Positions 19,801 through 38,196 of a stretch of 64,000 nucleotides of DNA are shown in pieces (position 1 is the stretch's first letter; each line of letters starts with the position of its first letter). Source of the stretch: Gulosibacter chungangensis (GTDB taxonomy: Bacteria; Actinomycetota; Actinomycetes; Actinomycetales; Microbacteriaceae); contig NZ_WBKB01000011.1 of NCBI RefSeq assembly GCF_008831155.1, positions 1 to 64,000 of the forward strand, read 5' to 3'. A model generated the notes under the pieces. That model did no database searches. It was not told where the DNA came from and worked only from the letters and a program-made list of their open reading frames with translations. A program made the position numbers and the translations under genes.

Positions 19801-20307
19801 ACCGGGTTCGATAGCCTCGAAACGAGCCAGGTTCCACAGTATTTATCTGGTCCCCACCTCGACGAGGGAGTTGAGGGGATGGCGGCCAATCGCGCACTCT
19901 TGGCTCGAATTGACGCGCTTTTTCCAGCGAGGGGAATTGACTTGTCTCAATATCGTGCTGTCCAAAACCGAGCGAATGGCAGACGGTCCTTGACCGTCTC
20001 ACACCGGAAGAAGTGGGCCTGATCGACACCTTCATCCGGTTCAATCCGGCGTCCCACAATGAGCGGTGGGCATCGAAGGGGATGGAATCACCACCTTCCA
20101 CCTCGGCGGGGGATTGGTGGCGGCCGCCGATTCGCTCTTCGACTTCAAACGTCGCTACGACCCGAGTAACGAGCCCTTGACCTTTCACCTCGGCAAGGTC
20201 GTGCACGACCCGGACCAGTACCGGGCGCTTGCCGGGACGGATTTCACAGAGGGCTATTTCCCGCCGTGGCGGGAACCAATCCCCGCTACCGACTTGAAGG
20301 CCGCTTG
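19801..20307 (+). pseudogene. frameshifted remnant, acyltransferase-like, polysaccharide-locus type
   Basis: Conceptual protein runs through all three frames. Frame of 19801 reads QYLSGPHLDEGVEGMAANRA, LLARIDALFPARGIDLSQYR. The next frame reads LDRLTPEEVGLIDTFIRFNPASHNERW, and a third reads GIEGDGITTFHLGG, LVAAADSLFDFKRRYDP, LGKVVHDPDQYRALAG and GYFPPWREP. Each piece looks like real protein, and joining them needs two frameshifts and lost 5' sequence. The FKRRYDP segment and the adjoining sugar transferase suggest a FemAB/GNAT-like enzyme of an exopolysaccharide locus, but this family call is weak. Confidence 0.45.
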
Positions 20308-24150: not shown

Positions 24151-25743
24151 ATGGAGAGCCAAAGCAAAGCTGCTGAAGCGGCCCCAAACGAAACCGAACA
24201 CTCCGCCTCGGAGTTCAAACGAGACATGGGATTCTGGGGCAACCTCGCCCTCGGATTCACCTATCTTTCGCCCGTGGTGGGCGTGTACGCAACCTTCGCC
24301 GCATCCGTCGCAATCGCGGGCCCACCCGCATTCTGGATGCTGATCATCGCCGGTCTCGGCCAGCTGCTTGTCGCCACCGTCTTCGGTGAGGTCGTCTCGC
24401 AGTACCCGGTCGCCGGTGGCATCTACCCCTGGAACCGACGCCTTTGGGGCGCCAAGTGGGGCTGGATCAGCGGTTGGATCTACATGATCGCGATCAACGC
24501 GACCATCGCATCCGTCGCCTACGGTGCCGGTCCCTTCCTCGGCGCCCTCCTCGGCATCGAGATGAATGCATCCGCAAACGTGCTGCTGGCACTGCTGATC
24601 ATTCTGCTGGCGACCTTCGCAAACCTGGGCGGAACGAAGTTCCTCGCCAAGGTCGCCTTCGTCGGCTTCGTGCTGGAGATTATCGCCAGCGCAGTGATCG
24701 GTGTGTGGCTGCTCATCGCGGTGCGCAAGCACGACCTCTCGGTCCTCTTCCAGGACTTCCGCCCGGCCGACATGCAGGAAAACAGCCCCTTCCTCATCGC
24801 CTTCCTCGGCGCCGCGATCATGGGTATTTACCTCTACTACGGCTTTGAAGCCAACGGTGACGTGGCGGAAGAGGTTCGTGATCCGGGTCGCGTGATTCCC
24901 AAGGCCATGCGGATGACCATCTACGTCGGTGGTGTCGCATCCATGTTCATCGCCCTGGGTCTCATCCTTGCGGTCGGTAGCTTCGAGGACATCATTAACG
25001 GCACCATTCCGGACCCGATCAGCGCGATCTTCATGGAAGCCTTCGGCCCGATTGGCTTCAAGATCGTGATGGCAGTTGTGCTCGTGTCCTTCCTCTCGTG
25101 CACCATCTCGCTGCAGGCCGCGGCCTCGCGCCTGATGTTCTCGATGGGTCGCGACAACCAGTTGCCGGGCGCCAAGTACCTCAAGCGCTTCAACGCGAAG
25201 CGCGCGGTTCCCCCATACGCACTGATCGTGGCTGGCGTGCTGCCCGCAATCGTCGTGGTGATTTCGCTGCTGAGTGAGGATGCACTGATCGCGATTATCT
25301 CCTTCGCCGCCTTCGGTATCTACCTCGCCTTCGCCGCGGTGGTGCTCGCCTCGCTGCGGGCTCGCATCCTTGGCTGGAAGCCCTCCGGTCAGTTCCGGAT
25401 GGGGAACTGGGGCTGGGCGATTACGATCGCCGCCCTTACCTACCAGATCTTCGCGATGGTGATCGTGGTCTGGCCGGTTGCTGGCGCACCGTGGTTTGAG
25501 GCCTGGCTGGTCGGCATCATGGGTGTCGTGGTGGTCGGTGTTGGATGCATCTACCTGTTCACTGCGCACCCTGAGACCAAGGGTGGGGCAGACGCGGGTA
25601 TCGCCACAGGTGTGGTGGACACGCACCTCATCCAGCCAATTGCGCCGACCGAGGAGCTCGTCGACATGGCGATCCGACTCGACGGTGGCAAGCCGCACAT
25701 CTACCCAGACAACCAGCGGAACTGGGACGAAGAGCGGAAGTAG
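24151..25743 (+). CDS. APC-superfamily amino acid/amine permease
   Basis: 530 residues, about 12 membrane helices plus a hydrophilic C-terminal tail. GFWGNLALGFTYLSPVVGVY in helix 1, GEVVSQYPVAGGIYPWNRRL, YYGFEANGDVAEEVRDPGRVIPKA and SRLMFSMGRDNQLP are APC (ACT-like) landmarks. It would be the uptake step for the adjacent amine module. AAAGGA sits eight bases before the ATG. A terminator follows. Confidence 0.85.
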   Translation: MESQSKAAEAAPNETEHSASEFKRDMGFWGNLALGFTYLSPVVGVYATFAASVAIAGPPAFWMLIIAGLGQLLVATVFGEVVSQYPVAGGIYPWNRRLWGAKWGWISGWIYMIAINATIASVAYGAGPFLGALLGIEMNASANVLLALLIILLATFANLGGTKFLAKVAFVGFVLEIIASAVIGVWLLIAVRKHDLSVLFQDFRPADMQENSPFLIAFLGAAIMGIYLYYGFEANGDVAEEVRDPGRVIPKAMRMTIYVGGVASMFIALGLILAVGSFEDIINGTIPDPISAIFMEAFGPIGFKIVMAVVLVSFLSCTISLQAAASRLMFSMGRDNQLPGAKYLKRFNAKRAVPPYALIVAGVLPAIVVVISLLSEDALIAIISFAAFGIYLAFAAVVLASLRARILGWKPSGQFRMGNWGWAITIAALTYQIFAMVIVVWPVAGAPWFEAWLVGIMGVVVVGVGCIYLFTAHPETKGGADAGIATGVVDTHLIQPIAPTEELVDMAIRLDGGKPHIYPDNQRNWDEERK

Positions 25744-25767
25744 CCGCACTCGAGCTAACAACACGAA

Positions 25768-25804
25768 ATAGGGGTGCAGGAGAGTTTCTCTCCTGCACCC
25801 CTAT
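25768..25804. terminator. bidirectional terminator after the permease
   Basis: A perfect 17-bp stem (ATAGGGGTGCAGGAGAG and complement) with a TTT loop lies between the convergent permease and Cache-domain genes. Confidence 0.85.
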
Positions 25805-25828
25805 TCGTATTGAGAGTGCCGACGTCGC

Positions 25829-26536
25829 CTAGACGCGATAGATGAGGCTCAGGTCGAGCCCGGGTGAGTCGATCCGCGTGCGGGCATAGCCCTGGGGGAT
25901 CTGGGCCACGAGGATGCCGGTCGACAGCGACCCGGAGTTCCCGACGATCACCGAGTTGTGTCGATTCAAGAGGGCAGTGCCGGGGCCGAGCGGCGCAAGC
26001 ATCCGCAGGAGCTTTGTCTCGACCTCGTTCATGACCATGTCCATGCCGGCCACGCCGATTTTCTTCCCATCGGCGTAGGCGGGCACGGTCATCGTGACGA
26101 TGTAGTCGTCCACACCGAGGTGGTCAATATAGGGGCCGGCGATCGAGCGGCGCTCTTCGCGATAGCCGCCCTGCCACCATTCCAAGATCTCGTAGTCGTA
26201 GAACTGTCCCGAGCTCGGGTCGAGATTGAACTTTTGGCGCACGAACTCGATGCCGGAACGGATCCACCATTCGAGTCTCGCCTTGCCGGGTTTTTGGATC
26301 TCGACGGGAAAGATCAACCCCGCGCCGTCAAGCGAGGGGTGTTCTTTGAGGTGTTCAATTACGCGCGCTCGGAGTTTTGCGGAGGTTGTGGCCGCGACCT
26401 CATAGGGCGCGTCACCGGAAAAATCCGGAGCGACGGCCTCCGTGAGTTCGGCCCCTAACTGCTCCAGGTCGGAATAGAGCCCGTTAAACCAATGGGCGAT
26501 GTCCTTGGCTACAGCGGCTACGTTGCTGCTTGTCAC
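25829..26536 (-). CDS. soluble Cache-domain sensor protein
   Basis: 235 residues. The central part has the PAS-like Cache fold signs: LEWWIRSG, GQFYDYEILEWWQGG, GPYIDHLGVDDYIVTMTVPAY and KIGVAGMDMVMNEVE. Cache domains normally sit outside the membrane in receptors, but there is no signal peptide or membrane helix here, so the protein is cytosolic. The start is GTG with GAGGA upstream. It lies directly after a GntR regulator and is probably co-transcribed, which suggests it binds the amine substrate and modulates the regulator (inference). Confidence 0.7.
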   Translation of the reverse strand: MTSSNVAAVAKDIAHWFNGLYSDLEQLGAELTEAVAPDFSGDAPYEVAATTSAKLRARVIEHLKEHPSLDGAGLIFPVEIQKPGKARLEWWIRSGIEFVRQKFNLDPSSGQFYDYEILEWWQGGYREERRSIAGPYIDHLGVDDYIVTMTVPAYADGKKIGVAGMDMVMNEVETKLLRMLAPLGPGTALLNRHNSVIVGNSGSLSTGILVAQIPQGYARTRIDSPGLDLSLIYRV

Positions 26537-26591
26537 TGCCGGTTTGTCCTCTTCACTGTGGCTACTGTTTCACTGCGGCTAATCACTGTCG

Positions 26592-27458
26592 CTACTGCCC
26601 GGCCGTGTGATCAATCGTGAGTTTCACGTCGATCAGCCGGTACACCGTTTTGCGGATGTGTTCTTCGATGACTTGCTCAACTCGCGTTGAGTCATGCGCC
26701 GCGACGGCTGCCGTGACGTCGCGGAGATCTTGCAAGGTTTCTGCAGCAGAGGTTGCTGCCCCTGCGGGTGACCACTTTAGCGCGCTAATTTCGGACTGCA
26801 GTCGCATCTCGGCGGCGAGGAGGCGAGGCGATTGTGCACTCACCGCGAGTTGGATGTGGAAACGACCGTCGGCGCTCGCGGCGGTCTCGGGCGAGTTGGC
26901 GGACTCGAGCCGATTGGCGGCGACGAGCAGGTCGCGGATGGCCTGCTCGTGGGCGCGCTGACAGGCAAGCCGCGCGATGCCGGTGGCGATGGTCATGTGT
27001 TCGTCACCGTAGTCGCGGATCTGCACGATCGTCAGGTTGGCGAGGTAGTCGCGCACCTGCGTTTCGCTGGGGAAGGGCACGCGCACCACGAAAGTGCCGC
27101 CGCCACGCCCGCGTCGAGTCTCGACGATGCCCTGTTCGCGCAGGACCGCGAGACTCTTGCGGAGCGTGGCGACGGCAACACCAAATTCGGCCGCGAGTTC
27201 GATCTCGGAGGGGAGGCGTTCCCCGACCGCGATGGAACCCAAAGAAATGGCCGACACAATTTGATCAGCGAGCACGTCGCCAAAGGTGTACGGTGCGGAG
27301 CTGGCCCGAACCGCCGGGCCCATAACAATGCGTTGGCTCACTGACTGTTCCTCGTTCGTCTGTCCTGGGACGATACTAGCGGGGCGCAGTTGAGTGAGGG
27401 CCAGGGATTGGGCCACGGATGAGGTCACCGCGGTGCTAGCCCCTTGGCTAGTTACCAC
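26592..27458 (-). CDS. GntR/FadR-family transcriptional regulator
   Basis: Up to 288 residues. The winged helix-turn-helix has YTFGDVLADQIVSAISLGSIAVGERLPSEIELAAEFGVAVATLRKSLAVL, and the C-terminal FCD ligand domain has RFHIQLAVSAQSPRLL and EEHIRKTVYRL. The FadR subgroup often senses carboxylic acids or catabolic intermediates. The start is uncertain: the GTG used overlaps the flavodoxin gene by 11 bases, while an ATG at 27323 would begin just before the DNA-binding domain. It probably controls the surrounding amine module. Confidence 0.82.
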   Translation of the reverse strand: MVTSQGASTAVTSSVAQSLALTQLRPASIVPGQTNEEQSVSQRIVMGPAVRASSAPYTFGDVLADQIVSAISLGSIAVGERLPSEIELAAEFGVAVATLRKSLAVLREQGIVETRRGRGGGTFVVRVPFPSETQVRDYLANLTIVQIRDYGDEHMTIATGIARLACQRAHEQAIRDLLVAANRLESANSPETAASADGRFHIQLAVSAQSPRLLAAEMRLQSEISALKWSPAGAATSAAETLQDLRDVTAAVAAHDSTRVEQVIEEHIRKTVYRLIDVKLTIDHTAGQ

Positions 27459-27921
27459 CGTTGGCCGGAGCGAGGCTGGTCGCGGCGGCTACGATTTCCG
27501 GCAGCCATTCGAGGGCAACATCGCTCGGGAGGTCCCAAGAGGATGCGTCGTGGCGGCCGTATTCGCCGACTCGCGTCGCACCGAGCTCGGCGAGTCGGTT
27601 GTCGATGTGCTCGCTGCCCTGGCTGTAGGTCTCTTCGTAGAAGGTGTCGCCGAGTCCGAACATCGCGTAGCGGACGCCCGAGAGGTCGGCTTCGAAGGAC
27701 TTGAACTTTTCGAAGAAGGGCAGCGCGGTGTTCGGCAGTTCGCCCTCGCCGTGGGTGGAGCAGACGATGATGTAGAACTGCTCGGCGGTGAACTCTGCCG
27801 GTTCGAAGTCTTGCAGGTCTTTTACTTCGGCCTCGTGTTCTTCTTGCAGTTTGGCGCCGAGGTCCTGCGCGATGAGTTCTGAGTTACCGGATTCGCTGCC
27901 GTAGAGCACAGTGAATTTCAT
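27448..27921 (-). CDS. flavodoxin (P450 redox partner candidate)
   Basis: 157 residues, one FMN domain. The phosphate loop is LYGSESGNSE, and the flavin-flanking loops STHGEGELPN and GLGDTFYEETYSQGSEHID are intact, with a close resemblance to the FMN domains of CPR/sulfite reductase. It lies between an FprA-type reductase and a GntR gene, and a P450 is divergently placed. No ferredoxin is present, so this flavodoxin most likely carries electrons from the reductase to the P450, as cindoxin does for P450cin. Confidence 0.88.
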   Translation of the reverse strand: MKFTVLYGSESGNSELIAQDLGAKLQEEHEAEVKDLQDFEPAEFTAEQFYIIVCSTHGEGELPNTALPFFEKFKSFEADLSGVRYAMFGLGDTFYEETYSQGSEHIDNRLAELGATRVGEYGRHDASSWDLPSDVALEWLPEIVAAATSLAPANGGN

Positions 27922-27950
27922 GATGAGTCTTCTTTCGTGTGGTTGTGGAT

Positions 27951-28053
27951 GTGTCGTTCCCCGAGTAGGCCGGAGGCCGTATCGAGGGGATGCTGCGTGG
28001 GACGCGCTTCGATACGCTTCGCTACTCAGCGAGCGGCTTGGCTACTCAACGAG
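27951..28053. repeat. REP-like palindromes at the end of the reductase gene
   Basis: GTTCCCCGAGTAGGCCGGAGGCCGTATCGAGG and the inverted form GCGCTTCGATACGCTTCGCTACTCAGCGAGCG lie face to face, followed by a partial third copy (GCTACTCAACGAGCGC). The last part forms the end of the reductase coding sequence. Confidence 0.8.
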
Positions 28054-29364
28054 CGCACCGTGCGCGATGTCGAGCATGGCGTCGTGGCTGAGAATTTTGG
28101 TTCGGATGCGGTCGGTTTCGGCCGACTCGGTTTCGGCGGCGTCGATCTTCTGCCATTGGGCAAATGAGATCGCCTGCTCCCGCAGCGTCGAGGGCAACGC
28201 GGCAAATCCGCCGTGGTCCGGGTTTGCGAAAAGTTCGCCGGATTCGCTGGCCGCGATGATTTCTTTCGCGACCTTGTTCGAGTCGGCTCGGTTCGCGGGG
28301 ATCGCTCCCACCGGCCCGCGCTTGAGCCAACCGACGCGGTAGAGCGCCGCTTCGGGGCGGCCGCCGGCTTCCACCTGCCCACTGCCTTCCGAAGGCCCGA
28401 AGTCATATTCTTCGGCGTAGTTGAGGTGGCCGGGGGCGTTGACGTCGAAGCCGATCGCCGAGATCACGGTGTCGGCGGGGATGACGCTCGCTTCGCCCGC
28501 GGGAGCAACGCCGAGGTGGACCTGTCCCACGCGCCCGTCGCCGGTGACCTTGCTCGGTTCGGCGCCGAAAATGAAGTGCACGTGCGCGCGCGGTTCGGTG
28601 ACCTCGATGGTCGTGAGACTTTCGAAGGCTTCCTCGCGTTTGCGGCCGAGCGCGTTGTCTTCGGTCGCGGGGCTCGAGTTCGCCACGCTGAAACGCACGC
28701 CGGGGATCTTCCCGAGTTCCTTAACCATGGCGACGTCGGCCTTGGCGGTCGCAATGGGGGAGCGGCTGAGCACCGTGATGTTGGATGCGGGGGATGCGAG
28801 GTACTGCTTGAGCGCCTCGGGTGCGATGTCGCTACCGGAGTAGTCCTCGGCAGTTTTTACGAGGAAGCGCACCATGTCGATGGCCACGTTTCCGGCGCCG
28901 ACTACGACCACGCGCTCGCCAATTTCGGGCAGCGGGATGCTCGGGCGGGGTACCGCGTTGAGCGCATTAATGATGTCGCCCGAGGGTACGACGCCCGGCA
29001 GCCGTGAGCCCGGTACCGAGAGGTGGCGGTCGCGCCAGCGGCCGCTGGCAAGGATGACCAGGTCAAAGTGGGAGCGCAGCTCCGACAGTGTGATGTCGGT
29101 GCCGATTTCAATATTGCCGGCGAATCGCACCGCGTTGGGTGCGGCGGGGCTGGCCGCAAACATCCGGTCAAACTGCCGAGTGATGGCCTTGGTGTGCTGG
29201 TGGTCTGCCGCCACCCCGTAGCGAATCAGTCCGTAGGGGACCGCAAACCGATCGAAAACGGTAATCTCTGAATCTTTCCAGGCGCGCTGGAGTGACTGGG
29301 CGACAAAGCATCCGCTGGGACCACTGCCCACGATTGCGATGTGTTTAGGGGGAAGTTTGCTCAC
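28042..29364 (-). CDS. FprA-type NADPH:ferredoxin/flavodoxin reductase
   Basis: 440 residues, homologous to adrenodoxin reductase and mycobacterial FprA. The FAD site is IAIVGSGPSGCFVAQ, followed by PYGLIRYGVAADHQHTK. The NADPH site is VVVVGAGNVAIDMVRFL, and YRVGWLKRGPVGAIPANRADS is the conserved C-terminal block. It would take electrons from NADPH and pass them to the flavodoxin 120 bases downstream. The start is GTG with GGAAGGAA. The C-terminal residues ALVE and the stop are coded by a dispersed palindromic repeat. Confidence 0.88.
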   Translation of the reverse strand: MSKLPPKHIAIVGSGPSGCFVAQSLQRAWKDSEITVFDRFAVPYGLIRYGVAADHQHTKAITRQFDRMFAASPAAPNAVRFAGNIEIGTDITLSELRSHFDLVILASGRWRDRHLSVPGSRLPGVVPSGDIINALNAVPRPSIPLPEIGERVVVVGAGNVAIDMVRFLVKTAEDYSGSDIAPEALKQYLASPASNITVLSRSPIATAKADVAMVKELGKIPGVRFSVANSSPATEDNALGRKREEAFESLTTIEVTEPRAHVHFIFGAEPSKVTGDGRVGQVHLGVAPAGEASVIPADTVISAIGFDVNAPGHLNYAEEYDFGPSEGSGQVEAGGRPEAALYRVGWLKRGPVGAIPANRADSNKVAKEIIAASESGELFANPDHGGFAALPSTLREQAISFAQWQKIDAAETESAETDRIRTKILSHDAMLDIAHGALVE

Positions 29365-29447
29365 GTACGATTCCTTCCGGTCTCCTACAGTCGCGCCGCG
29401 TTGCGCACTGAGACATGAACTATAAAGATCTGGAAATCAATCATTAC

Positions 29448-29576
29448 GCAAATTTGCCGCTCAGGCAAGCCGGAGTGGCTGAATGATGCGCCTTGCTTAC
29501 GTGTGATTTGGCAATTCCAGCTGTGAATGTCGGTGGTGGCGGGGTTGCACAAATCATTTAGTCGTGATTTTATACA
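29448..29576. promoter_or_regulatory. divergent control region of the P450 and reductase genes
   Basis: About 296 bases separate the two genes. They contain a perfect palindrome GCAAATTTGC (29448-29457), TTGCTTACGTGTGATTTGGCAA with inverted TTGC/GCAA ends (29494-29515), and TTGCACAAATCATTTA (29545-29560), which matches 12 of 16 positions of the palindrome found at 23682. TATACA follows. I read these as candidate regulator sites and a promoter, none proven. Confidence 0.45.
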
Positions 29577-29660
29577 TTCACCAATGAAGGTTTCGGTTCG
29601 TGGTTAAGTCACGCACCAAATCCCGAGTCTTATCAACGCTGATGAGTCAGAGAGGACACA

Positions 29661-30869
29661 ATGAGCGCTATCGCAGCAACCGAGTTGCCATACTTCGACA
29701 TTGCAGACCCATCCTTTGCGATGCAGTCGGAAGCCGTTCGCGCAGCTCGCGACGCTTCGTGGATCGCCCGCACCAACTACGGCTACGCCGTGCTTCGCTA
29801 TGAGGAAGTTTCGGAGCTGCTCAAGAGCCCCAAGCTCTCGCAGGGGAGCAAGAAGTGGCCGGACCACCACGGGGTTCACTCGGGCCTCTTCTACGACTGG
29901 TGGGAAAAGAACCTCCTCGTGCTCGAGGGAGATGAACACCACCGCATCCGCCGTCTGCTCAACCCGGCCTTCTCGCCGTCGATGGCACGCAAGCTCGAGC
30001 CCGAGTTCAAGGCGCTCGCGGAAGAGCTCATCGCGAATGTCGTCGACAAGGGGGAGATGGAGTTCGTGAGTGACTTCTCGGAGCCGTTTGCGACCCGTGC
30101 GCTGTGCATCATGATGGGCCTTGACCACAAGCACTGGGAGTTCATCGCCGACCGCGCGAACACCGTCGGCTATGCCCTGAGCGTCAACATCAAGGAAGAC
30201 ATTGACCGTGTTGACTATGCGGTCAAGGAACTCTACGACTTCGTTGAGGAACTCATCCAGGAGCGCCAGGCGAACCCCGGCCAGGATGTCGTGTCTCGCC
30301 TCGTGCAGTTCAGCGAGGGTGGCGACAAACTCAGCGCCGAAGAGCTGCGTAATGCTCTCGTGCTGATGCTCTTTGGCGGCATGGACACCACCCGCAATCA
30401 GCTCGGGCTGATGCTGCACACCTTCATCCACAACTCCGACCAGTGGGAGAAGCTCGCCGCGAACCCGGAGCTCACGAAGGCTGCGCTCGAGGAGACCCTG
30501 CGCGTGAACCCCACGACTCGCTGGGTGACGCGTGAAGCGCTTGAAGACTTTGAGTACAAGGGTGTGGAGATCGCGGCCGGCACGACCGTGCACCTCTTTA
30601 CCTTCTCGTCCGGTACCGACCCCGAGGCCTTCCCGAATCCCGAAATCGACATCGAGGCCGAGGACCGCAAGCCGCACTTCACCTTTGGCGGTGGCGTGCA
30701 CCACTGCCTCGGGCACTACATCGCGCGTGCCGACATGAGCCAGGCACTGCCGGTGCTCGCGGCGAACCTCACGAACATCCAGGTCGTCCCCGGCGGCGAC
30801 GAGTGGCTTCCGGACTCGGGTAACACCGGCCCCGTCAAGCTCACCGTCACCTTCGACAAGCGCGCCTAG
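29661..30869 (+). CDS. cytochrome P450 monooxygenase
   Basis: 402 residues, soluble class I-type P450. The I-helix oxygen motif is LFGGMDTTRNQ (about 239-244), the K-helix ExxR is EETLR (about 277), and the heme loop is FTFGGGVHHCLGHYIARAD with the axial Cys near 349. There is no membrane anchor. I cannot name the CYP family. Its neighbours are its own flavodoxin and reductase on one side, and a gamma-glutamylamide synthetase homologue, hydrolases and an aldehyde dehydrogenase on the other. That suggests it hydroxylates an amine or its glutamyl derivative next to nitrogen. Confidence 0.88.
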   Translation: MSAIAATELPYFDIADPSFAMQSEAVRAARDASWIARTNYGYAVLRYEEVSELLKSPKLSQGSKKWPDHHGVHSGLFYDWWEKNLLVLEGDEHHRIRRLLNPAFSPSMARKLEPEFKALAEELIANVVDKGEMEFVSDFSEPFATRALCIMMGLDHKHWEFIADRANTVGYALSVNIKEDIDRVDYAVKELYDFVEELIQERQANPGQDVVSRLVQFSEGGDKLSAEELRNALVLMLFGGMDTTRNQLGLMLHTFIHNSDQWEKLAANPELTKAALEETLRVNPTTRWVTREALEDFEYKGVEIAAGTTVHLFTFSSGTDPEAFPNPEIDIEAEDRKPHFTFGGGVHHCLGHYIARADMSQALPVLAANLTNIQVVPGGDEWLPDSGNTGPVKLTVTFDKRA

Positions 30870-30880
30870 CCCGCCCTGAT

Positions 30881-30990
30881 CGCTGAGTAGCGCAGCGTAT
30901 CGAAGCGCAGCCCCTCGATACGGCCTCCGGCCTACTCGGGGAACGACTTCCCCGCCCCTCGATACGGCCTTCGGCCTACTCGGGGAACGA
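30881..30990. repeat. three REP-like palindromes
   Basis: One CGCTGAGTAGCGCAGCGTATCGAAGCGC unit faces two direct CCCCTCGATACGGCCTCCGG-type units ending in CCTACTCGGGGAACGA. They lie between the P450 and the glutamine synthetase-like gene and may end or trim the P450 transcript. Confidence 0.85.
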
Positions 30991-31026
30991 CCCCAAAGCA
31001 TCCAAACCCCAACAAAAGGTAAATCA

Positions 31027-32520
31027 ATGACGATTACAAACGACACCATTACCGAAACTTCGACGCCGATCGAGCCCTTCCTCGAGTCGCTGAAGACTCG
31101 CGAGCTCAAGAACGCCGGCAACCTCGCCGAAAACTATCGCGAGCGCATCGAAGCCGACCTCAACGACAACAACGCGCTCTCCCGTCACCGCGAGCGCAAC
31201 CTCGAGAACGACACCGTTGAAGCGCTCAAGGAAAAGATTGAGCGCTCGGGCGTCGAATACCTCTACTACATGGTGCCGACCCTCCGTTCGCGCACGGTCG
31301 CGAAGATGGTGCCGGCGAAGCACTTCCTGCGCAACCTCGAAAGCGGCGTGAAGTTCACCCGCAACGCGCTGATGGACTTCCAGCTGGACGTCTTCGGCAA
31401 CCCGATTGGCGCCGACATCCACTCGAAGGAATTCGTCGCGATGCCGGACCCTGAGTCCTTCAACGCGCTGCCCTGGGACACTTCGGTCGGTCGGATTTTC
31501 TCGACCGCCTATGAGCCCGACCACCTGCCGGTCGTCGGCGGTCGCCCGAACGCGGTGGACTCGCGCGCAAACATGAAGCGCACACACCAGCTACTCAAGG
31601 ACATCTTCGGGCTCACGATGAAGTCGGGCCTGGAGCCGGAAATGGTGTGGGTCGGCGACTCGATCACCCCGAAGACGATCCCCGGCTACAACCCCGCCTA
31701 CCAGGTCGAGTACCTCGAGGGCATGCGTCCGATCTACAAGCGCGTGCACGAGTACGCGAACCAGCTCGGCTTCGACATGATCGAGGGCGACTACGAGGAC
31801 AAGGGCCAGATCGAGCTGAACTGGATGTTCGACGAGATCGAATGGACCGCCGACCGCATGGTCACCTACCGCCAGATTTGCTCGCAGGTGGCGCGCGAAT
31901 TCGGTGTGGAAGCATCCTTCATGCCCAAGCCCTTCCTCGGTGAGATGGGCGCCGGTTGCCACCACAACATTTCGCTGTGGGACGAGCAAGGCAACAACAC
32001 CCTCGAGACCCCGGGCGTGACCGAACTGCACCTCTCGCAGGTGGGTCGCTGGGCCGTCGGCGGCATCCTGAAGCACGCTCCGGGCATGATGCTGATCATG
32101 GCCTCGACCGTGAACTCCTACAAGCGCTTCTGGGACCCGGGACAGTTCGCCCCGGCCCGCGCCGACTGGGGTCTGGACGACCGCGCATCCATGGTGCGCA
32201 TCTCGGCAAATGGCCGTGCCGAGGTTCGCGTGCCGGATGCATCCGTCAACCCGTACCTTTCGCACTCGCTGCTGACGGCTGCTGTGGCCGACGGTATCGG
32301 CAACCAGATCGAGCCGATCGGCCCGGGCGAGCAGGGCGAAGACCTGCCGCGCACCCTCGGCGAGGCGGTCGAGGCGTTCCGTGCGAACCCGTTCGTGCAG
32401 GCGCACTTGCCGAATGAGCTCGGTGAGACCTTCGCGACGATGAAGGAAAACGAGTGGGCACAGTACTGCGCGACCGTGTCGCAGTGGGAGTTCGACCAGT
32501 ACTGGCAGGCGATCCCCTAA
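31027..32520 (+). CDS. glutamine synthetase-like gamma-glutamylamide synthetase
   Basis: 497 residues of the glutamine synthetase fold, not a housekeeping GlnA. Conserved features: GLEPEM and EGDYEDKGQIELN (metal and glutamate ligands), FMPKPFLGEMGAGCHHNISLW (ATP site), NSYKRF, and ARADWG with an essential Arg. Such enzymes (PuuA, IpuC, GlnA3/4 type) use ATP to join glutamate to an amine. Next to two gamma-glutamyl hydrolases and an aldehyde dehydrogenase, it probably starts a glutamylated-amine pathway. Its stop overlaps the next start by one base. Confidence 0.85.
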   Translation: MTITNDTITETSTPIEPFLESLKTRELKNAGNLAENYRERIEADLNDNNALSRHRERNLENDTVEALKEKIERSGVEYLYYMVPTLRSRTVAKMVPAKHFLRNLESGVKFTRNALMDFQLDVFGNPIGADIHSKEFVAMPDPESFNALPWDTSVGRIFSTAYEPDHLPVVGGRPNAVDSRANMKRTHQLLKDIFGLTMKSGLEPEMVWVGDSITPKTIPGYNPAYQVEYLEGMRPIYKRVHEYANQLGFDMIEGDYEDKGQIELNWMFDEIEWTADRMVTYRQICSQVAREFGVEASFMPKPFLGEMGAGCHHNISLWDEQGNNTLETPGVTELHLSQVGRWAVGGILKHAPGMMLIMASTVNSYKRFWDPGQFAPARADWGLDDRASMVRISANGRAEVRVPDASVNPYLSHSLLTAAVADGIGNQIEPIGPGEQGEDLPRTLGEAVEAFRANPFVQAHLPNELGETFATMKENEWAQYCATVSQWEFDQYWQAIP

Positions 32521-33299
32521 TGGCCGACATTTCAACTGGTGCCGTGGCGAGCGACGCGAATGTCACTCGCCCGGCGGCGGAACTGACTACGATTCGCTTC
32601 GCCTGCATCGACTCGGAAGCTGCCCCGCTCTTTGATCTTTCGCCCGATGGCGGCAAGACCCGCACCGGCTACGAACCTGAGGCAGCGGCGATCGTTGCCG
32701 AGGAACTCGGGGTCGCGCTCGAGTGGGCCGTGATGGCTTGGGATGACATGATTCCGGCCGTGCAACGCGGTGAAGTGGATGCTGTGTGGTGCGGTCAGGG
32801 GATCATCCCTTCGCGCCAGGAACAGGTGAATTTCACCCGTCCCTATGCGGTCTTTAGCGAGACCGTGCTGGTGCGTGCCGGGGACCCGGCGCGGAAGCCG
32901 GAAGACCTCGTCGGCTACAAGGTCGCGGCCATTGAAGGCAGCGCGAACATGCGCCTGGCCGAGACTTTCGAGGGCGCCGAGACCGTGGCCTTCAACGGTG
33001 ACGATGTCTTCGGCGACATGATCCAAGCCGTGCGCGACGGCACCGTCGACGCGATGGTGGACGACGATGTCGTGACCATCCCGCTCGGCGACGAACCCGA
33101 GTTCGATGTGGCCTTCACCGTGCAGACCCGGAACCCCTGGGGTGTCGGTGTTGCGAAGGACCGCGACGACCTCCTCGAGCTCCTCGACGGGGCGCTCGAA
33201 CGAGTGATTGCCGACGGCCGCCTCGAAGCGGTATGGAATAAGTGGATGACGTCGCTCCCGTATCCGGGGGAGACGTTGCGAGATGGGAGACCCTCTTGA
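32520..33299 (+). CDS. amino-acid-binding protein fold without signal peptide
   Basis: 259 residues, family 3 substrate-binding protein fold: IRFACIDSEAAPLFDL, TGYEPEAAAIVAEELGV, WDDMIPAVQRGEVDAVWCGQGIIPSRQEQVNFTRPY and NPWGVGVAKD. Such proteins normally carry a lipoprotein or Sec signal; none is visible, and no ABC membrane or ATPase gene is nearby. It is therefore probably cytosolic, perhaps a ligand sensor or an enzyme using the binding-protein fold. It is tightly coupled to the synthetase upstream and the hydrolase downstream. Confidence 0.75.
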   Translation: MADISTGAVASDANVTRPAAELTTIRFACIDSEAAPLFDLSPDGGKTRTGYEPEAAAIVAEELGVALEWAVMAWDDMIPAVQRGEVDAVWCGQGIIPSRQEQVNFTRPYAVFSETVLVRAGDPARKPEDLVGYKVAAIEGSANMRLAETFEGAETVAFNGDDVFGDMIQAVRDGTVDAMVDDDVVTIPLGDEPEFDVAFTVQTRNPWGVGVAKDRDDLLELLDGALERVIADGRLEAVWNKWMTSLPYPGETLRDGRPS

Positions 33300-34258
33300 G
33301 CGGTAAACCGCTGATCGCAGTCCCCGGGATGGCTTCGGCTCAGATCCGGGGACTTCGGTTCTCTGGAACCGTGGTTGCGAACGCAGTATTGGAAAGCATT
33401 GTCCGCGCCGGCGGCGAGCCGGTGATCGTCTCGCCGGTCGCCGAGTCGGGGATCTGGGATCGCGTGGACGGCATCGTGTTGCCAGGCGGTTCGGATATCA
33501 ACCCGGCGCGCTACGGCGCGGAACCGGATGAGACCCACGCGGGCACCGATTTCGATATTCAAGATGATGCGGATGCGCGCGCGATCGCGGCCGCCGAGTC
33601 GCGAGGACTACCGGCACTGCTGATTTGCCGCGGGATGCAGCTGTGGAACGTCGAGCGCGGCGGCACCATGATTCAGCACTGGCCCTCGGACCAGCAGGAG
33701 CACGTTGGGACCGTGCATGCTGTTGAGGTGGATGCTGAGTCTCGCTTGGCAGCGGCGCTCGCGGATGCTGCACCTGCACCTGCACCTGCGGCTGCGGCTG
33801 CGGCGGAGCTGCCTACGGCCGAACTGCCCGCCGCTGAACTGTCTGCGGCCGAGTCCGTCACGGTGTCGAGCTACCACCACCAGGCAGTGGGCGAACTCGG
33901 CCGTGGCCTGCGGGTCGTGGCCCGCGCATCCGACGGCTGTGTTGAAGCGCTCGAAGACCCATCGCTCAATATCGTCGCCGTACAGTGGCACCCGGAAGAC
34001 CGGGCCGAAACGCTCGCCGTCGACCAAGTGCTGTTCGACTGGGTCGTGCAGCAGGCCGCCGAGTTCCGCGCGGCGAAGGCGCAGCGCGCGGGATCGACGC
34101 AGCGCACTGGATCGGCTCCGGTTGCCCGACCAGCGGCCGACGCGGTATCAGCGCCAGAAGCTGGATCCGCTCCAGCTGCTGACTCAGCAGCCGACGCGGG
34201 ATCGGCATCCGCCGCCGAACCAGCACAGAAAGAGGACATCAACGTTGCCACGGTATGA
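33296..34258 (+). CDS. gamma-glutamyl hydrolase, peptidase C26 (PuuD-like), first copy
   Basis: A class I glutamine amidotransferase fold with PGGSDINPARYG, the nucleophile Cys in LLICRGMQLWNVERGG (about residue 111), YHHQAVGEL and the His-Glu pair in VQWHPED. PuuD-type enzymes release the product from gamma-glutamyl-GABA. I prefer the TTG that overlaps the previous stop (TTGA, with GGGAGA upstream); an ATG at 33242 is possible. Two Ala/Pro/Glu-rich insertions are unusual: about 30 residues before YHHQA, and a C-terminal tail of about 55. Confidence 0.8.
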   Translation: MSGKPLIAVPGMASAQIRGLRFSGTVVANAVLESIVRAGGEPVIVSPVAESGIWDRVDGIVLPGGSDINPARYGAEPDETHAGTDFDIQDDADARAIAAAESRGLPALLICRGMQLWNVERGGTMIQHWPSDQQEHVGTVHAVEVDAESRLAAALADAAPAPAPAAAAAAELPTAELPAAELSAAESVTVSSYHHQAVGELGRGLRVVARASDGCVEALEDPSLNIVAVQWHPEDRAETLAVDQVLFDWVVQQAAEFRAAKAQRAGSTQRTGSAPVARPAADAVSAPEAGSAPAADSAADAGSASAAEPAQKEDINVATV

Positions 34259-35063
34259 CAAGGTGCTTCGTCCGGAGGACGTATTCCTGACCGCCCCGCG
34301 CGCGGACGCGGACGTGCGGATCGCGGTGGTCGTGCAAATGACGACCCCCGACCAGTCCAAGTTCAGTTATGAACTCAACCGCGACCTGATTCGCACCGCG
34401 ATCGCATCCCTGCACGAGCACGGGGCAAGCGTAGCCCTGCACGATGTCGCGACAGACTCCGAGCCCGACTACGCGGAGGTTGCCGCGGCCGACGGCATCC
34501 TCGTGCTCGGTGGCGGCGATGTGGACGCCACGCTTTACGGCCACTTCGACCCAGTGCCCAATGAGGGCGGTAAGGATCGCCGTGCGGATGACCGCGAGAT
34601 CGCGATCATCCAGGAAGGCATTGAGGCGGACGCGATCATGCTGCACCTGTGCCGCGGCTCGCAGTTGCTGAACGTGGCCTGCGGAGGTTCGCTGATTCCC
34701 GATGTGGAGTCGGCGGACCTGAACCCACCGAACCTGCACAAGGGTGCGAAGGGGTCGCCGCTTTTCCTCGACGAGGAAGTGCAACTGGTTGAAGGTAGCC
34801 GCGTGCGGGAGCTGTATGGTACGCCCACGCTCACGGTCCGAAACGGCCACCACCAAGCGGTGGACCGCGTCGGTGAGGGTCTGCGCGCATCCGCCGTCGC
34901 CCATGACGGCGTGGTTGAAGGCACCGAGCGCATCGATAACACCTGGATTATCGGAGTGCAGTGGCACCCCGAAGAAGCCGACGCGTCGAAAGCAGACCGC
35001 GACATCCTCTTCGCCGAGTTCCTCGCCCAAGTCCGCGCCCGCAAGTCCGTCCCCGCGGTCTAG
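34245..35063 (+). CDS. gamma-glutamyl hydrolase, peptidase C26 (PuuD-like), second copy
   Basis: 272 residues from a TTG start preceded by AGAGGA and overlapping the first copy by 14 bases. The catalytic Cys is in LHLCRGSQLLNVACGG (about residue 136), with NGHHQAVDRVGEG and IGVQWHPEE completing the triad. It lacks the low-complexity insertions of the first copy. Two adjacent, clearly diverged copies may handle two glutamyl intermediates or form a heteromer (inference). Confidence 0.82.
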   Translation: MPRYDKVLRPEDVFLTAPRADADVRIAVVVQMTTPDQSKFSYELNRDLIRTAIASLHEHGASVALHDVATDSEPDYAEVAAADGILVLGGGDVDATLYGHFDPVPNEGGKDRRADDREIAIIQEGIEADAIMLHLCRGSQLLNVACGGSLIPDVESADLNPPNLHKGAKGSPLFLDEEVQLVEGSRVRELYGTPTLTVRNGHHQAVDRVGEGLRASAVAHDGVVEGTERIDNTWIIGVQWHPEEADASKADRDILFAEFLAQVRARKSVPAV

Positions 35064-35153
35064 GTCCCGCACATTTAGCTAGGCATCTGCTGTGCTAATC
35101 AATGAACGGGGCCTGCGCCCAACCAAGACATCCAATTAACAAAGAGGTAAGCA

Positions 35154-36545
35154 ATGGCTGGATATCAAGTACTCAACCCCGCGACCGGCAAAGTCGAGTC
35201 GGAATTCCCCCGCGCATCCGACGCCGAGGTGCGCGAGGCGATCGACCTCGCTCACCACACCTACAACTCCTGGCGCGACACGAAGCTCGAGGAGCGCGTC
35301 GCGATCATCAAGCGCGTCGCCGAACTCTACCGCGAGCGTCGCGGCGAGCTGGTCGAGATCATCGCCCGCGAAATGGGTAAGCCCGTGCGGCAGGGTGCCG
35401 GTGAGATCGGCATTTCGGCAGACATTTTTGACTACTACGCCGACAACGCGGCCGAGTTCCTAAAGGAAGAGGAACTCACGGTGGCCTCGGGCGGCCGCGC
35501 GGTGGTGCGGATGGCGCCGACCGGCGTGATTCTCGGCATCATGCCTTGGAACTACCCCTACTATCAGGTCGCTCGCTTTGCCGCCCCGAACCTGCTGCTC
35601 GGCAACACGATCGTGCTGAAGCACGCATCGAACTGCCCCGAATCGGCGCAGGCGATCGCGAAGATCTTTGACGACGCCGGACTTCCCGCGGGTGCGTACG
35701 TGAACATTTACGCGTCGAGCTCGCAGGTGCCGAGCATCATTGAGGACCCGCGCGTGCAGGGTGTCTCGCTCACAGGTTCGGAACCGGCCGGCCGCTCGGT
35801 CGCCGAAGTCGCGGGCCGGAACCTGAAGAAGTGCGTGCTCGAGCTGGGCGGCTCGGACCCGTTCCTCGTGCTCAGCACCGAAGACGTCACCGCGGCCGCG
35901 AAGATCGCCGTCGGCGGTCGGATGGCGAACTCGGGCCAGGCCTGCAACGCCTCCAAGCGCGTGATCGTCGTCGACGAGTACTACGACGAGTTCCTGCAGG
36001 CGTACCTCGAACGGATGAAGCTGTTCGCGCCCGGTGACCCGCTTGATGGCGGCACTCGGTTTGGTCCGCTTTCGTCTGCCGGTGCGGTGGATGAGCTGGT
36101 CGAGCTGGTGGAGGACGCGGTTGCTAAGGGTGCGAATCTGCTGCTCGGCGGCAATCGCATCGAGCCGGATGAGGGCGACTGGGCCGAGGGCGCATGGATG
36201 GAGCCGACCGTGCTTACCGACATCACCCCCGAGATGCGCATTTACCGCGAGGAGGCCTTTGGGCCGGTGGCGTCGATCTATCGTGTGGCCGATGAGGTCG
36301 AGGCGATCCGCCTCGCCAACGACTCGCCCTTCGGGCTCGGCTCGTCGATCATCACCAATGACGAAGAGCAGGCGAACCGCGTCGCCGACCAGATCGAGGC
36401 CGGGATGGTCTACATCAACTCGGCTGGCGAGTCGGAGCCCGATCTGCCCTTCGGTGGCGTGAAGGCCTCCGGGATCGGCCGTGAACTCGGCCGCTTCGGC
36501 ATGGAAGAGTTCGCGAACCGCAAGCTCGTCCGCTGGAGCAACTAG
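35154..36545 (+). CDS. NAD(P)-dependent aldehyde dehydrogenase (GabD/PuuC-like)
   Basis: 463 residues, aldehyde dehydrogenase superfamily close to succinate-semialdehyde dehydrogenases. PWNYPYYQVARFAAPNLLLGN, SLTGSEPAGRSVAE, the general base Glu in LELGGSDPF (about 230) and the nucleophile Cys in NSGQACNASKR (about 264) are intact. It would oxidise the aldehyde formed after amine oxidation, on the free or glutamylated compound. It ends the plus-strand operon of the amine module; AAAGAGG precedes its start. Confidence 0.88.
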   Translation: MAGYQVLNPATGKVESEFPRASDAEVREAIDLAHHTYNSWRDTKLEERVAIIKRVAELYRERRGELVEIIAREMGKPVRQGAGEIGISADIFDYYADNAAEFLKEEELTVASGGRAVVRMAPTGVILGIMPWNYPYYQVARFAAPNLLLGNTIVLKHASNCPESAQAIAKIFDDAGLPAGAYVNIYASSSQVPSIIEDPRVQGVSLTGSEPAGRSVAEVAGRNLKKCVLELGGSDPFLVLSTEDVTAAAKIAVGGRMANSGQACNASKRVIVVDEYYDEFLQAYLERMKLFAPGDPLDGGTRFGPLSSAGAVDELVELVEDAVAKGANLLLGGNRIEPDEGDWAEGAWMEPTVLTDITPEMRIYREEAFGPVASIYRVADEVEAIRLANDSPFGLGSSIITNDEEQANRVADQIEAGMVYINSAGESEPDLPFGGVKASGIGRELGRFGMEEFANRKLVRWSN

Positions 36546-36720: not shown

Positions 36721-38196
36721 CTACGGTCGGCGGCGGGGCCACTTTGCGTAGACCTTTTCGAGGAGTTCTTCCTCGGCGTTCGGGCCCGGTTTCACGCCGC
36801 CCGGAATTCCGGCGAAGAAGACCGCACCGACGAGCCACCACACCCCGAAGATGACCCACGGCTGCACGCCGAGCCCGGCGGGCATCCCCGGCAGGTAGAG
36901 CAGCACGAGGAACGCGGTGATCGCAACCGAGGTCGCTCCAACGACCACACCGAAGTTGCCCTTGCCACCGACGCGCAGTGGGCGTGGCATGTCGGGTTCG
37001 CGGCGGCGAAGAATCACGAAGGAGATCGAGACCAGCAGGTACGCGATCACGATCATCGGGGAACCCGCATCCACAATCCAACCGAGGGCCTTGTGGCCGA
37101 AGAATGGCGCGATCGTCGCAACCGCACCGAGCACGACCAGCGCGTTGACCGGGGTTCCGAACTTGGGGTGGAGCTTGCCGAGCCAGGCGGGGAGCATCCC
37201 ACCCTGCGCGAGCGAATACATCAGTCGCGAGGCACCCATCTGCAGCGAGTTCCACGAGGTGACGATGCCGGCGATACCGGCGGCGACCATCAGGTTGCCG
37301 AAGAACTGACCCCCGAAGAGCGTGGCCATGGCGTCGGCGGCGGGGAGGGTCGAGCCGGAGACCTCGTCGGGTGTGAGTGCCGAGGACACGGTGAGGATGA
37401 TCATGATGTACCAAGCCGCGGCGATGATCACCGAGATGAACGCGATGCGACCGGTCTTCTTCGGCGGCAGGTTCACCTCTTCGGCGGTCTGCGGAATCAC
37501 GTCGAAACCGACGAACATGAACGGCACGATCACAAGTACCGCGAAGAACCCGGTCCAGCCGTTATTAAAGAAGGGCTCCATCGTGGCGACTTCACCCGCG
37601 TTGAAGGATCCGAACAGCTGCAGGAAGCCGATCGCGAAGAGGAAGATCACTACGAACATCTGGAACGAGCCGGCGATTTTCACGCCGAAGATGTTGATGA
37701 TGGTGATGAGTACCGCGGTGACGGCGCCGACGAGTGCCCACGAGAGGTAGACGTCCGAGTCGCTGATGCTCCACAGGTGGAAGTGGTCGAGCGGCACGAC
37801 GTATTCCATCGCGGTGGGTAGCGCGACCGCTTCGAACGCCACCACGGTGGTGTAGCCGCCGGTGATGCCCCAGGAGCCAATGAACGACCAGCGCGGTCCG
37901 AGCGCACGCAGAATGTAGTTGTGCTCACCACCGGCCTTCGGCATCGCCGCAACCATTTCGGAGTAGACGAGGGCGACGACCGCCATCATCACACCACCGG
38001 CAAGCATTGCGGCGGCGGCTCCGAATGATCCGGCATCTTCGATCCAACCGCCGACGAGCGTGACCCAGCCAAAGCCGACCATTGCGCCGACACCGAGCGC
38101 GAGGGTTGACCAGGTTCCGAGTCCGCGCTTGAAGCCGGGACCCTTGTTGGGCGCTGGCGGTGAATTGTGAACCGTACGAGATTGCTGGATACTCAA
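36721..38196 (-). CDS. APC-superfamily amino acid/amine permease
   Basis: 491 residues with about 12 membrane helices. GLGTWSTLALGVGAMVGFGWVTLVGGWIEDAG, YSEMVAAMPKAGGEHNYILRALGPRWSF, FVGFDVIPQTAEEVNLPPKKTGR and ASRLMYSLAQGGMLPAWLGKLHPKFGTP are family blocks. It differs clearly from the permease at 24.2 kb, so the module is framed by two non-duplicate transporters. An operator-like palindrome shared with the CoA-transferase gene lies about 80 bases upstream of its ATG. Confidence 0.85.
   Translation of the reverse strand: MSIQQSRTVHNSPPAPNKGPGFKRGLGTWSTLALGVGAMVGFGWVTLVGGWIEDAGSFGAAAAMLAGGVMMAVVALVYSEMVAAMPKAGGEHNYILRALGPRWSFIGSWGITGGYTTVVAFEAVALPTAMEYVVPLDHFHLWSISDSDVYLSWALVGAVTAVLITIINIFGVKIAGSFQMFVVIFLFAIGFLQLFGSFNAGEVATMEPFFNNGWTGFFAVLVIVPFMFVGFDVIPQTAEEVNLPPKKTGRIAFISVIIAAAWYIMIILTVSSALTPDEVSGSTLPAADAMATLFGGQFFGNLMVAAGIAGIVTSWNSLQMGASRLMYSLAQGGMLPAWLGKLHPKFGTPVNALVVLGAVATIAPFFGHKALGWIVDAGSPMIVIAYLLVSISFVILRRREPDMPRPLRVGGKGNFGVVVGATSVAITAFLVLLYLPGMPAGLGVQPWVIFGVWWLVGAVFFAGIPGGVKPGPNAEEELLEKVYAKWPRRRP

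Follow-up and report, generated by a model that had tools for sequence, protein, structure and literature searches.

A conserved P450 and glutamine synthetase-like operon in Gulosibacter chungangensis: a candidate pathway for cyclic secondary amines

The window analysed here is a stretch of 64,000 nucleotides from Gulosibacter chungangensis (contig NZ_WBKB01000011.1), in which one block of genes, listed with its surroundings in Table 1, forms a conserved operon. The functional block probably starts at 21141, with the glutaryl-CoA dehydrogenase (GCDH)-like and succinate-glutarate CoA-transferase-like genes. Each gene named in a preliminary description of the locus was recovered by Pfam at its place. 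Regulatory sequences are tentative: an octamer related to the operator-like sequence, AACATTCA, is common to 9/21 intergenic regions compared, and a promoter and terminator scan gave no promoter-like site and terminator-like sites at chance level. The second APC-family transporter has weak APC matches at the corresponding place in loci L136–L141.

Table 1. Features of the block and its surroundings (positions in the window).
Feature	Position	Strand	Basis or remark
Glutaryl-CoA dehydrogenase-like acyl-CoA dehydrogenase	21141..22301	-	proposed last pathway step
Class III CoA-transferase (best model: succinate-glutarate type)	22376..23608	-	NCBIfam NF052585, PDB
APC-family permease, proposed amine importer	24151..25743	+	AA_permease_2 2.9e-44
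Soluble dCache-fold protein, proposed cytosolic amine sensor	25829..26536	-	Pfam MCP-like_PDC_1
GntR/FCD transcriptional regulator	26592..27458	-	GntR and FCD (Pfam)
Flavodoxin, proposed P450 electron donor	27448..27921	-	Flavodoxin_1 7.6e-30
FprA/XplB-type flavodoxin reductase	28042..29364	-	best PDB match FprA 1lqt 1.4e-43
Operator-like ACATTCACCAATGAA, divergent promoter region, tentative	29574..29588	.	
Cytochrome P450, proposed alpha-carbon hydroxylase	29661..30869	+	p450 1.3e-27
Glutamine synthetase-like, proposed gamma-glutamylamide synthetase	31027..32520	+	Gln-synt_C 7.3e-66
SBP_bac_3-fold protein, no signal peptide, proposed gamma-glutamyl-intermediate binder	32520..33299	+	start 32520 = chosen
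C26 (PuuD-like) gamma-glutamyl hydrolase A	33242..34258	+	Peptidase_C26 1.5e-39
C26 (PuuD-like) gamma-glutamyl hydrolase B	~34245..35063, start approximate	+	Peptidase_C26 3.1e-37
Aldehyde dehydrogenase, succinate-semialdehyde-dehydrogenase-like	35154..36545	+	Aldedh 1.7e-142
Second APC-family transporter, possibly associated	36721..38196	-	NCBIfam 2A0306 1.1e-49

The P450, which we take to belong to the CYP151 family, carries the heme cysteine loop HHCLGH and the acid-alcohol pair GGMDTT. Its gene context is conserved in a close set of 34 unique loci besides the window, with P450s at least 57% identical (duplicates L141, L137, L138, and L140, equal to L002, L029, L004, and L003, were removed before counting). 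The glutamine synthetase-like (GS) gene and the binding protein (SBP) without signal peptide are present in 34/34 of these loci, a C26 hydrolase and the FprA-type reductase each in 33/34 (L085 gives only a weak partial reductase match), flavodoxin in 31/34, the FCD regulator and the Cache protein each in 30/34, and APC permease matches in 29/34. Conserved co-occurrence, proposed earlier as a check, is thus seen for the P450, synthetase, hydrolases, and redox pair, which form a unit across the close loci. The aldehyde dehydrogenase (ALDH), listed in the preliminary description with the other genes, is indeed in the locus; it lies outside the constant core, with ALDH queries matching in 10/34 close loci.

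The core extends to a second, probably mycobacterial genus. A search of 198 genomes of this genus, with nine first-look candidates scored per genome, found P450s 49–55% identical to that of the window in 22 genomes, at 24 places. GS, SBP, C26, FCD, and Cache genes accompany the P450 in 21/21 loci (21 of the 24 places examined). The GS gene occurs in 0/14 control loci with P450s 30–38% identical, three of them on contigs shorter than 15 kb (L131, L133, and L146), and in 3/11 loci with P450s below 30%, taken for other reasons (L082, L211, and L212). Chance adjacency of unrelated nitrogen genes could explain why the ALDH, second permease, and acyl-CoA genes vary; it is rejected, with only a very slight probability left to it, because GS and SBP are conserved in every close and second-genus locus while GS is absent from the distant ones.

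In the P450 tree, which omits eight further Leucobacter loci, L030, and all loci below 30%, the GS-linked P450s fall in one clade (53/57 rows, support 99/97), and four rows inside it lack GS (L026, L048, L127, and L128). Occurrence of the P450 set without glutamyl genes had been named in advance as an argument against the proposed pathway, and it is found in part: a 394-genome sample, with four first-look candidates scored per genome, gave 16 places in the P450 clade, 12 without a synthetase gene nearby. Ten of these form a sister branch, and the remaining two, a pair, lie within the synthetase-linked clade; other searches added L026 and L048 as further cases of synthetase loss.

The electron transport chain is the changeable part. 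A ferredoxin probe had no match in window positions 20001–41000 (best E 0.5), in agreement with the absence claimed earlier. Second-genus loci show a redox swap, with ferredoxin in 14/21 and flavodoxin in 0/21; in 7/21 the ferredoxin probe had no match. L085 carries a ferredoxin although its P450 is 62% identical to that of the window, so the choice of flavodoxin does not strictly follow the P450 tree. The flavodoxin tree was built from a subset of the flavodoxins.

The closest PDB structures to the GS-like protein are 7cql, a type III glutamate-ammonia ligase, and the glutamate-methylamine ligase 9qur. Its metal-ligand motifs are retained, and the DGSS segment and flap Glu (GQFAP), presumably ammonium-site features of glutamine synthetase, are missing. 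Both are likewise missing in four clade relatives and kept in the genome's own GlnA_a. Given these losses, and since the G. chungangensis genome has two other GS genes with higher scores, a housekeeping GS identity was rejected. On NF045547, the model for gamma-glutamylputrescine synthetase, the enzyme reaches 174.9 bits (cut-off 650). Peptidase_C26 matched twice; the two proteins reach 75.6 and 62.2 bits on the PuuD equivalog (cut-off 266), and hydrolases A and B share one open reading frame in L085 and L086.

Judged by eye, no hydrophobic N-terminal segment is present in the window SBP and 39 homologues, and no ABC-transporter family was found among the Pfam-scanned window proteins. With no signal peptide and no ABC partners, the SBP_bac_3 protein does not fit, by its sequence, a periplasmic ABC-transporter binding protein. 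The predicted model of the Cache protein (pLDDT 93.4) matches dCache ligand-binding domains in the PDB, e.g. PctC-GABA and McpU-putrescine, with modest TM-scores. An amine motif for dCache domains is described in the accessible part of PMC10104139.

The two upstream genes bear on the carbon skeleton. The 21141..22301 protein matches glutaryl-CoA dehydrogenase 3sf6 (E 1.3e-156) and 1siq (9.2e-111) in the PDB, and NCBIfam models only below their cut-offs, the best being FadE-type. The CoA-transferase scores 329.5 bits on its best model, NF052585 (cut-off 750), and its top PDB matches are 4ed9 (CaiB/BaiF), 10uh (formyl-CoA transferase), and 9br7 (succinate-hydroxymethylglutarate CoA-transferase). 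The pair adjoins the core in the window and 6/34 close loci, and occurs in another arrangement in 7/21 second-genus loci; the other 14 have the transferase alone (3), GCDH-like plus GabT genes (2), GabT plus a weaker transferase (3), or nothing (6). It is found in 0/14 controls and 0/12 GS-less relatives. Its position beside the core suggests an amine with five carbons, a piperidine-type ring being the most likely case. The pair was not found in the examined flanks of 28/34 close loci, including all Leucobacter and Brevibacterium; these loci may therefore have another end product, or the association may be fortuitous. The ALDH is best matched by the succinate-semialdehyde dehydrogenase (SSADH) model NF006915 (499.6 bits, cut-off 730), with SSADHs among its best PDB matches.

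From these sequence relationships, we give an even chance to the reading that the operon serves the breakdown of a cyclic secondary amine, with piperidine or a close C5 analogue as the likeliest substrate. The APC permease would import the amine, and the GS-like enzyme would couple it to the gamma-carboxyl of glutamate. Electrons would pass from NADPH through the FprA-type reductase and flavodoxin to the P450, which would hydroxylate the carbon next to nitrogen. The N-acyl hemiaminal would then open to gamma-glutamyl-5-aminopentanal, a Puu-like intermediate reached by ring opening and not by PuuB. An ALDH would oxidise this aldehyde, and the C26 hydrolases would free 5-aminovalerate and glutamate. 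Transamination (the genome has a GabT gene outside the block) and oxidation of the SSADH type could yield glutarate, which the upstream CoA-transferase and GCDH-like enzyme would convert to crotonyl-CoA. The cytosolic binding-protein fold may hold the gamma-glutamyl intermediates, and the Cache protein with the GntR/FCD regulator may act as an amine sensor.

The order of the first steps could also be reversed, which we consider unlikely: the P450 would open the cyclic amine in its free form, after which the synthetase would cap the amino aldehyde (or amino acid) against reclosure to the cyclic imine. The same gene set explains this, and the glutamyl group of the Puu pathway is regarded as a guard against such closure. 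Mycobacterial enzymes of the CYP151-type family reportedly use secondary amines in the free state, an activity that would place the P450 before the synthetase. Against this order, the Ipu system, the one P450-plus-synthetase case consulted, is described as glutamylating first in the available part of PMC6776027.

The E. coli Puu pathway shares with the block the logic of glutamylation, ALDH, and C26 hydrolase, and differs in its PuuB-type oxidase, where the window has a P450 chain and a synthetase far below the PuuA cut-off. Among the Pfam-scanned window proteins (ORFs of at least 120 aa) there is no DAO-type, PuuB-like family, as the preliminary description had stated. Its suggestion that the P450 replaces PuuB could hold for a linear diamine (cadaverine or putrescine), glutamylated and then oxidatively deaminated at its free end, and cadaverine would likewise yield glutarate; the GS-like enzyme, hydrolases, and ALDH are at hand. 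The low score on the gamma-glutamylputrescine synthetase model argues against it, and use of a P450 on a primary amine would be unusual. We rate this as improbable and regard ring opening of a cyclic secondary amine as the better fit.

The principle of glutamylation, P450, and hydrolase is already in print for isopropylamine, and the piperidine and morpholine clusters are reportedly similar. Mycobacterial pip/mor (CYP151A) clusters for piperidine, pyrrolidine, and morpholine are said to combine a P450 with a ferredoxin and a GS-like gene; likened by description, they share P450 and GS-like gene with the window, whereas the window uses flavodoxin and an FprA-type reductase. The probably mycobacterial loci above are putative stand-ins for these clusters; their P450s are 49–55% identical to that of the window, where a CYP151A relative would be expected to reach at least 40%. 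The part of PMC10301208 available names cyp151 only as a PCR target. For the Ipu systems (Pseudomonas KIE171 and Arthrobacter aurescens TC1), the accessible text describes a permease, a gamma-glutamylamide synthetase (IpuC), a P450 with ferredoxin and reductase, and an amidotransferase-type hydrolase, the TC1 P450 acting on gamma-glutamyl-isopropylamide (PMC6776027). By this description, not by sequence, the gene sets are alike and the chains differ, ferredoxin against flavodoxin/FprA-type; the same text makes no mention of a cytosolic binding protein, a Cache protein, or genes for glutarate. An Ipu-type substrate, a primary or branched alkylamine hydroxylated on its alkyl chain after glutamylation and released by the hydrolase as an amino alcohol, would follow the same logic and would not require the glutarate pair, missing from most close loci; yet TC1 is listed with ferredoxin, and the pair, where present, would be superfluous. 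We rate this reading as quite improbable. The earlier statement that no described pathway has this gene set was too strong for the principle, given the TC1 clusters. Our literature searches for the window pathway returned unrelated papers, or at most one. Overall, the earlier interpretation is partly supported.

The most unexpected observation is that the RDX plasmid pGKT2 carries, next to XplA and XplB, four components of this operon: its regulator, Cache protein, P450, and synthetase. Identities between the xpl cluster of pGKT2 (Gordonia KTR9), which degrades the explosive RDX, and the window are 37% for the FCD regulator, 32% for Cache, 52% for the P450, 50% for the GS part of the GlnA-XplB fusion, 37% for the XplB reductase, and 43% for the XplA flavodoxin domain. 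The plasmid GS is truncated and fused to XplB, whereas the window GS stands alone; XplA joins flavodoxin to a second P450 that is far removed in sequence (24%), whereas the window has flavodoxin and P450 as separate proteins. SBP, C26, and APC have no match in the 29 kb pGKT2 stretch. At 24% identity, direct kinship of the XplA heme domain with the window P450 was rejected; the redox module and gene context are shared instead. A search with the XplA-like heme domain (four first-look candidates scored per genome) found a GS-like gene in 3/4 readable loci with such domains.

In the reductase tree, window-type reductases and XplB form one clade (100/100; 32 rows against 19 FprA rows), with 18 rows omitted or replaced by cut domains and one reductase (contig C15) entered twice. 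XplB is a long branch whose exact sister is poorly supported (80/59, long branches flagged), and for this reason only clade membership is claimed. A joint proposal, which we place slightly short of an even chance, is that XplA/XplB were recruited from the present family of pathways, in which P450s would act on glutamylated (cyclic) amines, and that the cytosolic SBP fold handles gamma-glutamyl intermediates as a carrier, sensor, or lyase. By analogy, RDX has a ring of N-substituted secondary amine nitrogens and in this respect is like the N-acylated ring amines that these P450s are proposed to open. The literature searched, including the accessible parts of PMC10820124, PMC4226467, and PMC9837850, contained no statement of such an origin, which may already be in print.

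The locus represents a widespread actinobacterial catabolic module: a constant core of synthetase, P450, cytosolic binding protein, hydrolases, and Cache/GntR pair, wired to interchangeable electron chains. Since in some members of the family the core adjoins a C5 glutarate route, its substrate is testable with few compounds. The module also offers a concrete, testable origin for XplA/XplB, whose plasmid retains four of its components (regulator, Cache protein, P450, and synthetase).

All genes named in the preliminary description of the window locus were placed by Pfam. The reductase is FprA-like (PDB 1lqt, 1.4e-43), the P450 has its best PDB match in 3p3l, which we take to be AurH, and the synthetase best matches 7cql (labelled a type III glutamate-ammonia ligase) and 9qur (a glutamate-methylamine ligase). 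The reported lack of a ferredoxin was borne out by a ferredoxin probe, which had no match in 20001-41000. The closest models of the local aldehyde dehydrogenase (ALDH) are SSADHs (under cut-off), and its PDB matches prominently include SSADHs; GabT is encoded elsewhere in the genome (557 bits, over cut-off). Two genes lie upstream of the operon as first delimited: a glutaryl-CoA dehydrogenase-like (GCDH-like) gene (3sf6, 1.3e-156) and a class III CoA-transferase gene, whose top NCBIfam model, succinate-glutarate CoA-transferase, scores under its cut-off. A palindromic repeat (at most three mismatches) occurs in nine copies in the genome, six of them in the window and three within operon gaps.

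Coordinates of the repeat and of single features in comparison loci (L numbers)
Feature	Location	Strand
Palindromic repeat CCCTCGATACGGCCTnCGGCCTACTCGGGG	window 27959-27988, 30912-30941, 30956-30985, and 46836-47318	
Joined C26 hydrolases	L085 4275-5957	-
Joined C26 hydrolases	L086 12580-14157	+
Three-part fusion	L083 8815-11835	-
Three-part fusion	L080 8865-11597	-
XplB-like reductase	L081 8797-10293	+
P450 set	L048 3851-13119	
2Fe-2S reductase	L159 14059-15015	+

The P450, the glutamine synthetase-like gene (GS), the hydrolases and the redox pair recur together in most of 34 close loci (P450 at least 57% identical). Scanning named genomes with the P450 yielded 33 loci; identity is at least 56% in 30 of them, and 29 of these 30 have GS, L026 being the exception. 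The close set combines named-genome loci with further stretches after removal of four duplicates; in six of its loci the stretch stops no more than 5 kb from the P450 on one flank. GS and the binding protein (SBP, SBP_bac_3 fold) occur in all 34, C26 hydrolases and the FprA-type reductase in 33 (the latter as a weak, partial match in L085), flavodoxin in 31, the FCD regulator and Cache protein in 30 each, the APC permease in 29 and ALDH in 10. Among 394 genomes of the class (at most four candidates scored per genome), 16 P450 places reach 380 bits, the next scoring 266; GS is near four of them (the window and genomes G030, G415 and G321). The expected tie of the P450 to the synthetase gene holds in all 34 close loci and fails at the other 12 clade places, which have no GS nearby.

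One supported clade of the P450 tree (99/97) unites the GS-linked rows, 53 of its 57 rows having GS, and its sister branch consists of 10 rows without it. GS is absent from all 14 control loci (P450 at 30-38%) and present in 3 of 11 loci below 30% taken from other searches, which are the XplA-like cases. The sister-branch P450s (L118-L126, L129; 43-48% identity) have unrelated genes as neighbours, and a single ALDH match in L119 was the one operon gene found near them. A plasmid of Streptomyces NBC_00111 (L048) has an ectoine-synthesis-like cluster that encodes an adenylating enzyme and a carrier protein; set within it are a P450 from the GS-linked clade (51%), a ferredoxin and a reductase.

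The redox partners vary in the genus of G415. Among its 198 genomes, the P450 was found in 22, at 24 places (at most nine candidates scored per genome), of which 21 were examined. GS, SBP, C26, FCD and Cache genes are present in all 21 and APC in 20; a ferredoxin was found in 14 and a ferredoxin reductase in 6, and flavodoxin and the FprA-type reductase in none. In L159 the ferredoxin probe was negative; the C26 genes there are followed by the gene of a 2Fe-2S reductase that matches DmmA-like proteins weakly and may be the electron donor.

The synthetase and four clade relatives were compared with the two GlnA genes that the genome carries on contig C12. All five retain the metal-ligand motifs; the DGSS segment is missing from them, and so is the flap Glu, with GQFAP or GLFAP instead of GYEAP. 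As these features are parts of the ammonium site, the sequence makes an amine ligase more likely than a glutamine maker; its scores fall under both the PuuA and the type III cut-offs.

Chemical reasoning on the hydrolases favours a ring amine as substrate and underlies the proposed order of steps. Two hydrolases are present, so the amide bond should still be intact after the P450 has acted; if a glutamylated ring is alpha-hydroxylated, the ring would open and the amide would stay. A glutamylated primary alkylamine, if it were the P450 substrate instead, would be alpha-hydroxylated to glutamine and an aldehyde, leaving the hydrolases idle. Both C26 hydrolases lie within a single open reading frame in two loci (L085, L086), an arrangement suggesting that they work as a pair.

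The window and 6 of the 34 close loci have the GCDH-like and succinate-glutarate-type CoA-transferase genes (the glutarate pair) upstream of the permease; all six come from the genus of the window or from a Pseudoclavibacter record. Seven of the 21 loci in G415's genus carry a related pair (57-60% and 47-50%) beyond the C26 and PucR genes; of the other 14, three have the transferase alone near the stretch end, two a GCDH-like gene and GabT, three GabT and a weaker transferase, and six nothing. The pair occurs in none of the 12 GS-less clade places and none of the 14 controls, one of which (L134) has an acyl-CoA dehydrogenase match at 30%. Recurrence in differing arrangements suggests a functional link of the operon to glutarate, hence to 5-aminovalerate, and hence to piperidine or cadaverine. 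The pair was not found in the fetched flanks of the other 28 close loci, including Leucobacter and Brevibacterium, which counts against this C5 reading.

The SBP and 39 homologues have no signal peptide as judged by eye. Structures matched by its AlphaFold2 model (pLDDT 90.5) are those of amino-acid-binding proteins, of the ancestral protein AncCDT-1 and of SocA, which binds opines. Arg99 and Asp182, invariant across 25 sequences, are presumably the counterparts of the alpha-carboxylate and alpha-amino contacts in amino-acid binders. Because a gamma-glutamyl amide offers such a free amino-acid end, the modelled protein is proposed to hold pathway intermediates in the cytosol, perhaps as an enzyme, a sensor or a carrier. 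The Cache protein was modelled with confidence (pLDDT 93.4), and its fold is similar, at modest TM-scores, to ligand-binding dCache domains whose structures contain GABA, putrescine or ethanolamine. Inspection by eye shows no membrane segment; the gene adjoins that of the FCD regulator in most loci, and the protein is the proposed amine-sensing partner of the regulator.

CYP151 piperidine and morpholine clusters carry a GS-like gene. Set against these clusters, known here by description, the window operon appears to differ in its flavodoxin/FprA chain. P450 action on a gamma-glutamyl amide is already known, since isopropylamine (Ipu) clusters with this activity are described in PMC6776027. Unlike Ipu as described there, the window has a flavodoxin/FprA electron chain and adds a signal-less SBP, a Cache/GntR pair, glutarate genes and a link to xplAB, in a comparison of descriptions rather than of sequences.

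The RDX-degrading system of plasmid pGKT2 (Gordonia KTR9) has the gene order FCD regulator, Cache protein, P450, GS-XplB fusion and XplA. Its P450, which we take to be labelled cyp151C, is 52% identical to that of the window, the GS part 50% and XplB 37%. Both this P450 and the GS part share 70% identity with their counterparts in the mycobacterial-type operon L116; against L159 and L171 the GS reaches 81-82%, and the P450 groups with these two loci in the tree (100/95). XplA is a flavodoxin-P450 of 552 residues, the length also given in PMC10820124. The XplA heme domain was considered as near kin of the window P450 and rejected, the two not being close.

With at most four candidates scored per genome, the 394 genomes have only five places where a match to XplB exceeds 250 bits (next, 193), and the genome of the window accounts for three of these. 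Under the same limit, five genomes pass the threshold set for an XplA-like heme domain. A GS-like gene shares the stretch in G415 (L082), G227 and G244 (L211, L212) and was not found in that of G035 (L210); the G337 contig is too short to judge. In L082 an unfused XplA-like P450 (46%) is grouped with an XplB-like reductase, two permeases of the APC type and a GS-like gene that is 29% identical to the window GS. The GS-like genes of L211 and L212 (29%) are about 7 kb off and directly adjoin another P450. P450, XplB/FprA-like reductase and flavodoxin are fused in a single chain of 1007 aa in G407 (L083) and likewise on contig C12 of the window's genome (L080), where the flavodoxin part contains an in-frame TAG. 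Contig C15 of that genome encodes a third XplB-like reductase (about 41-43%) near a C26 hydrolase (L081), in a 19 kb stretch with no P450 match.

In the reductase tree, with several long branches flagged, a clade supported at 100/100 holds both XplB and the reductase of the window, apart from canonical FprA. In the flavodoxin tree, the XplA flavodoxin is sister to that of L082 (99/94). From gene context and trees, we hypothesize that XplA and XplB may have been recruited out of the glutamyl-amine pathway family that also includes the window operon.
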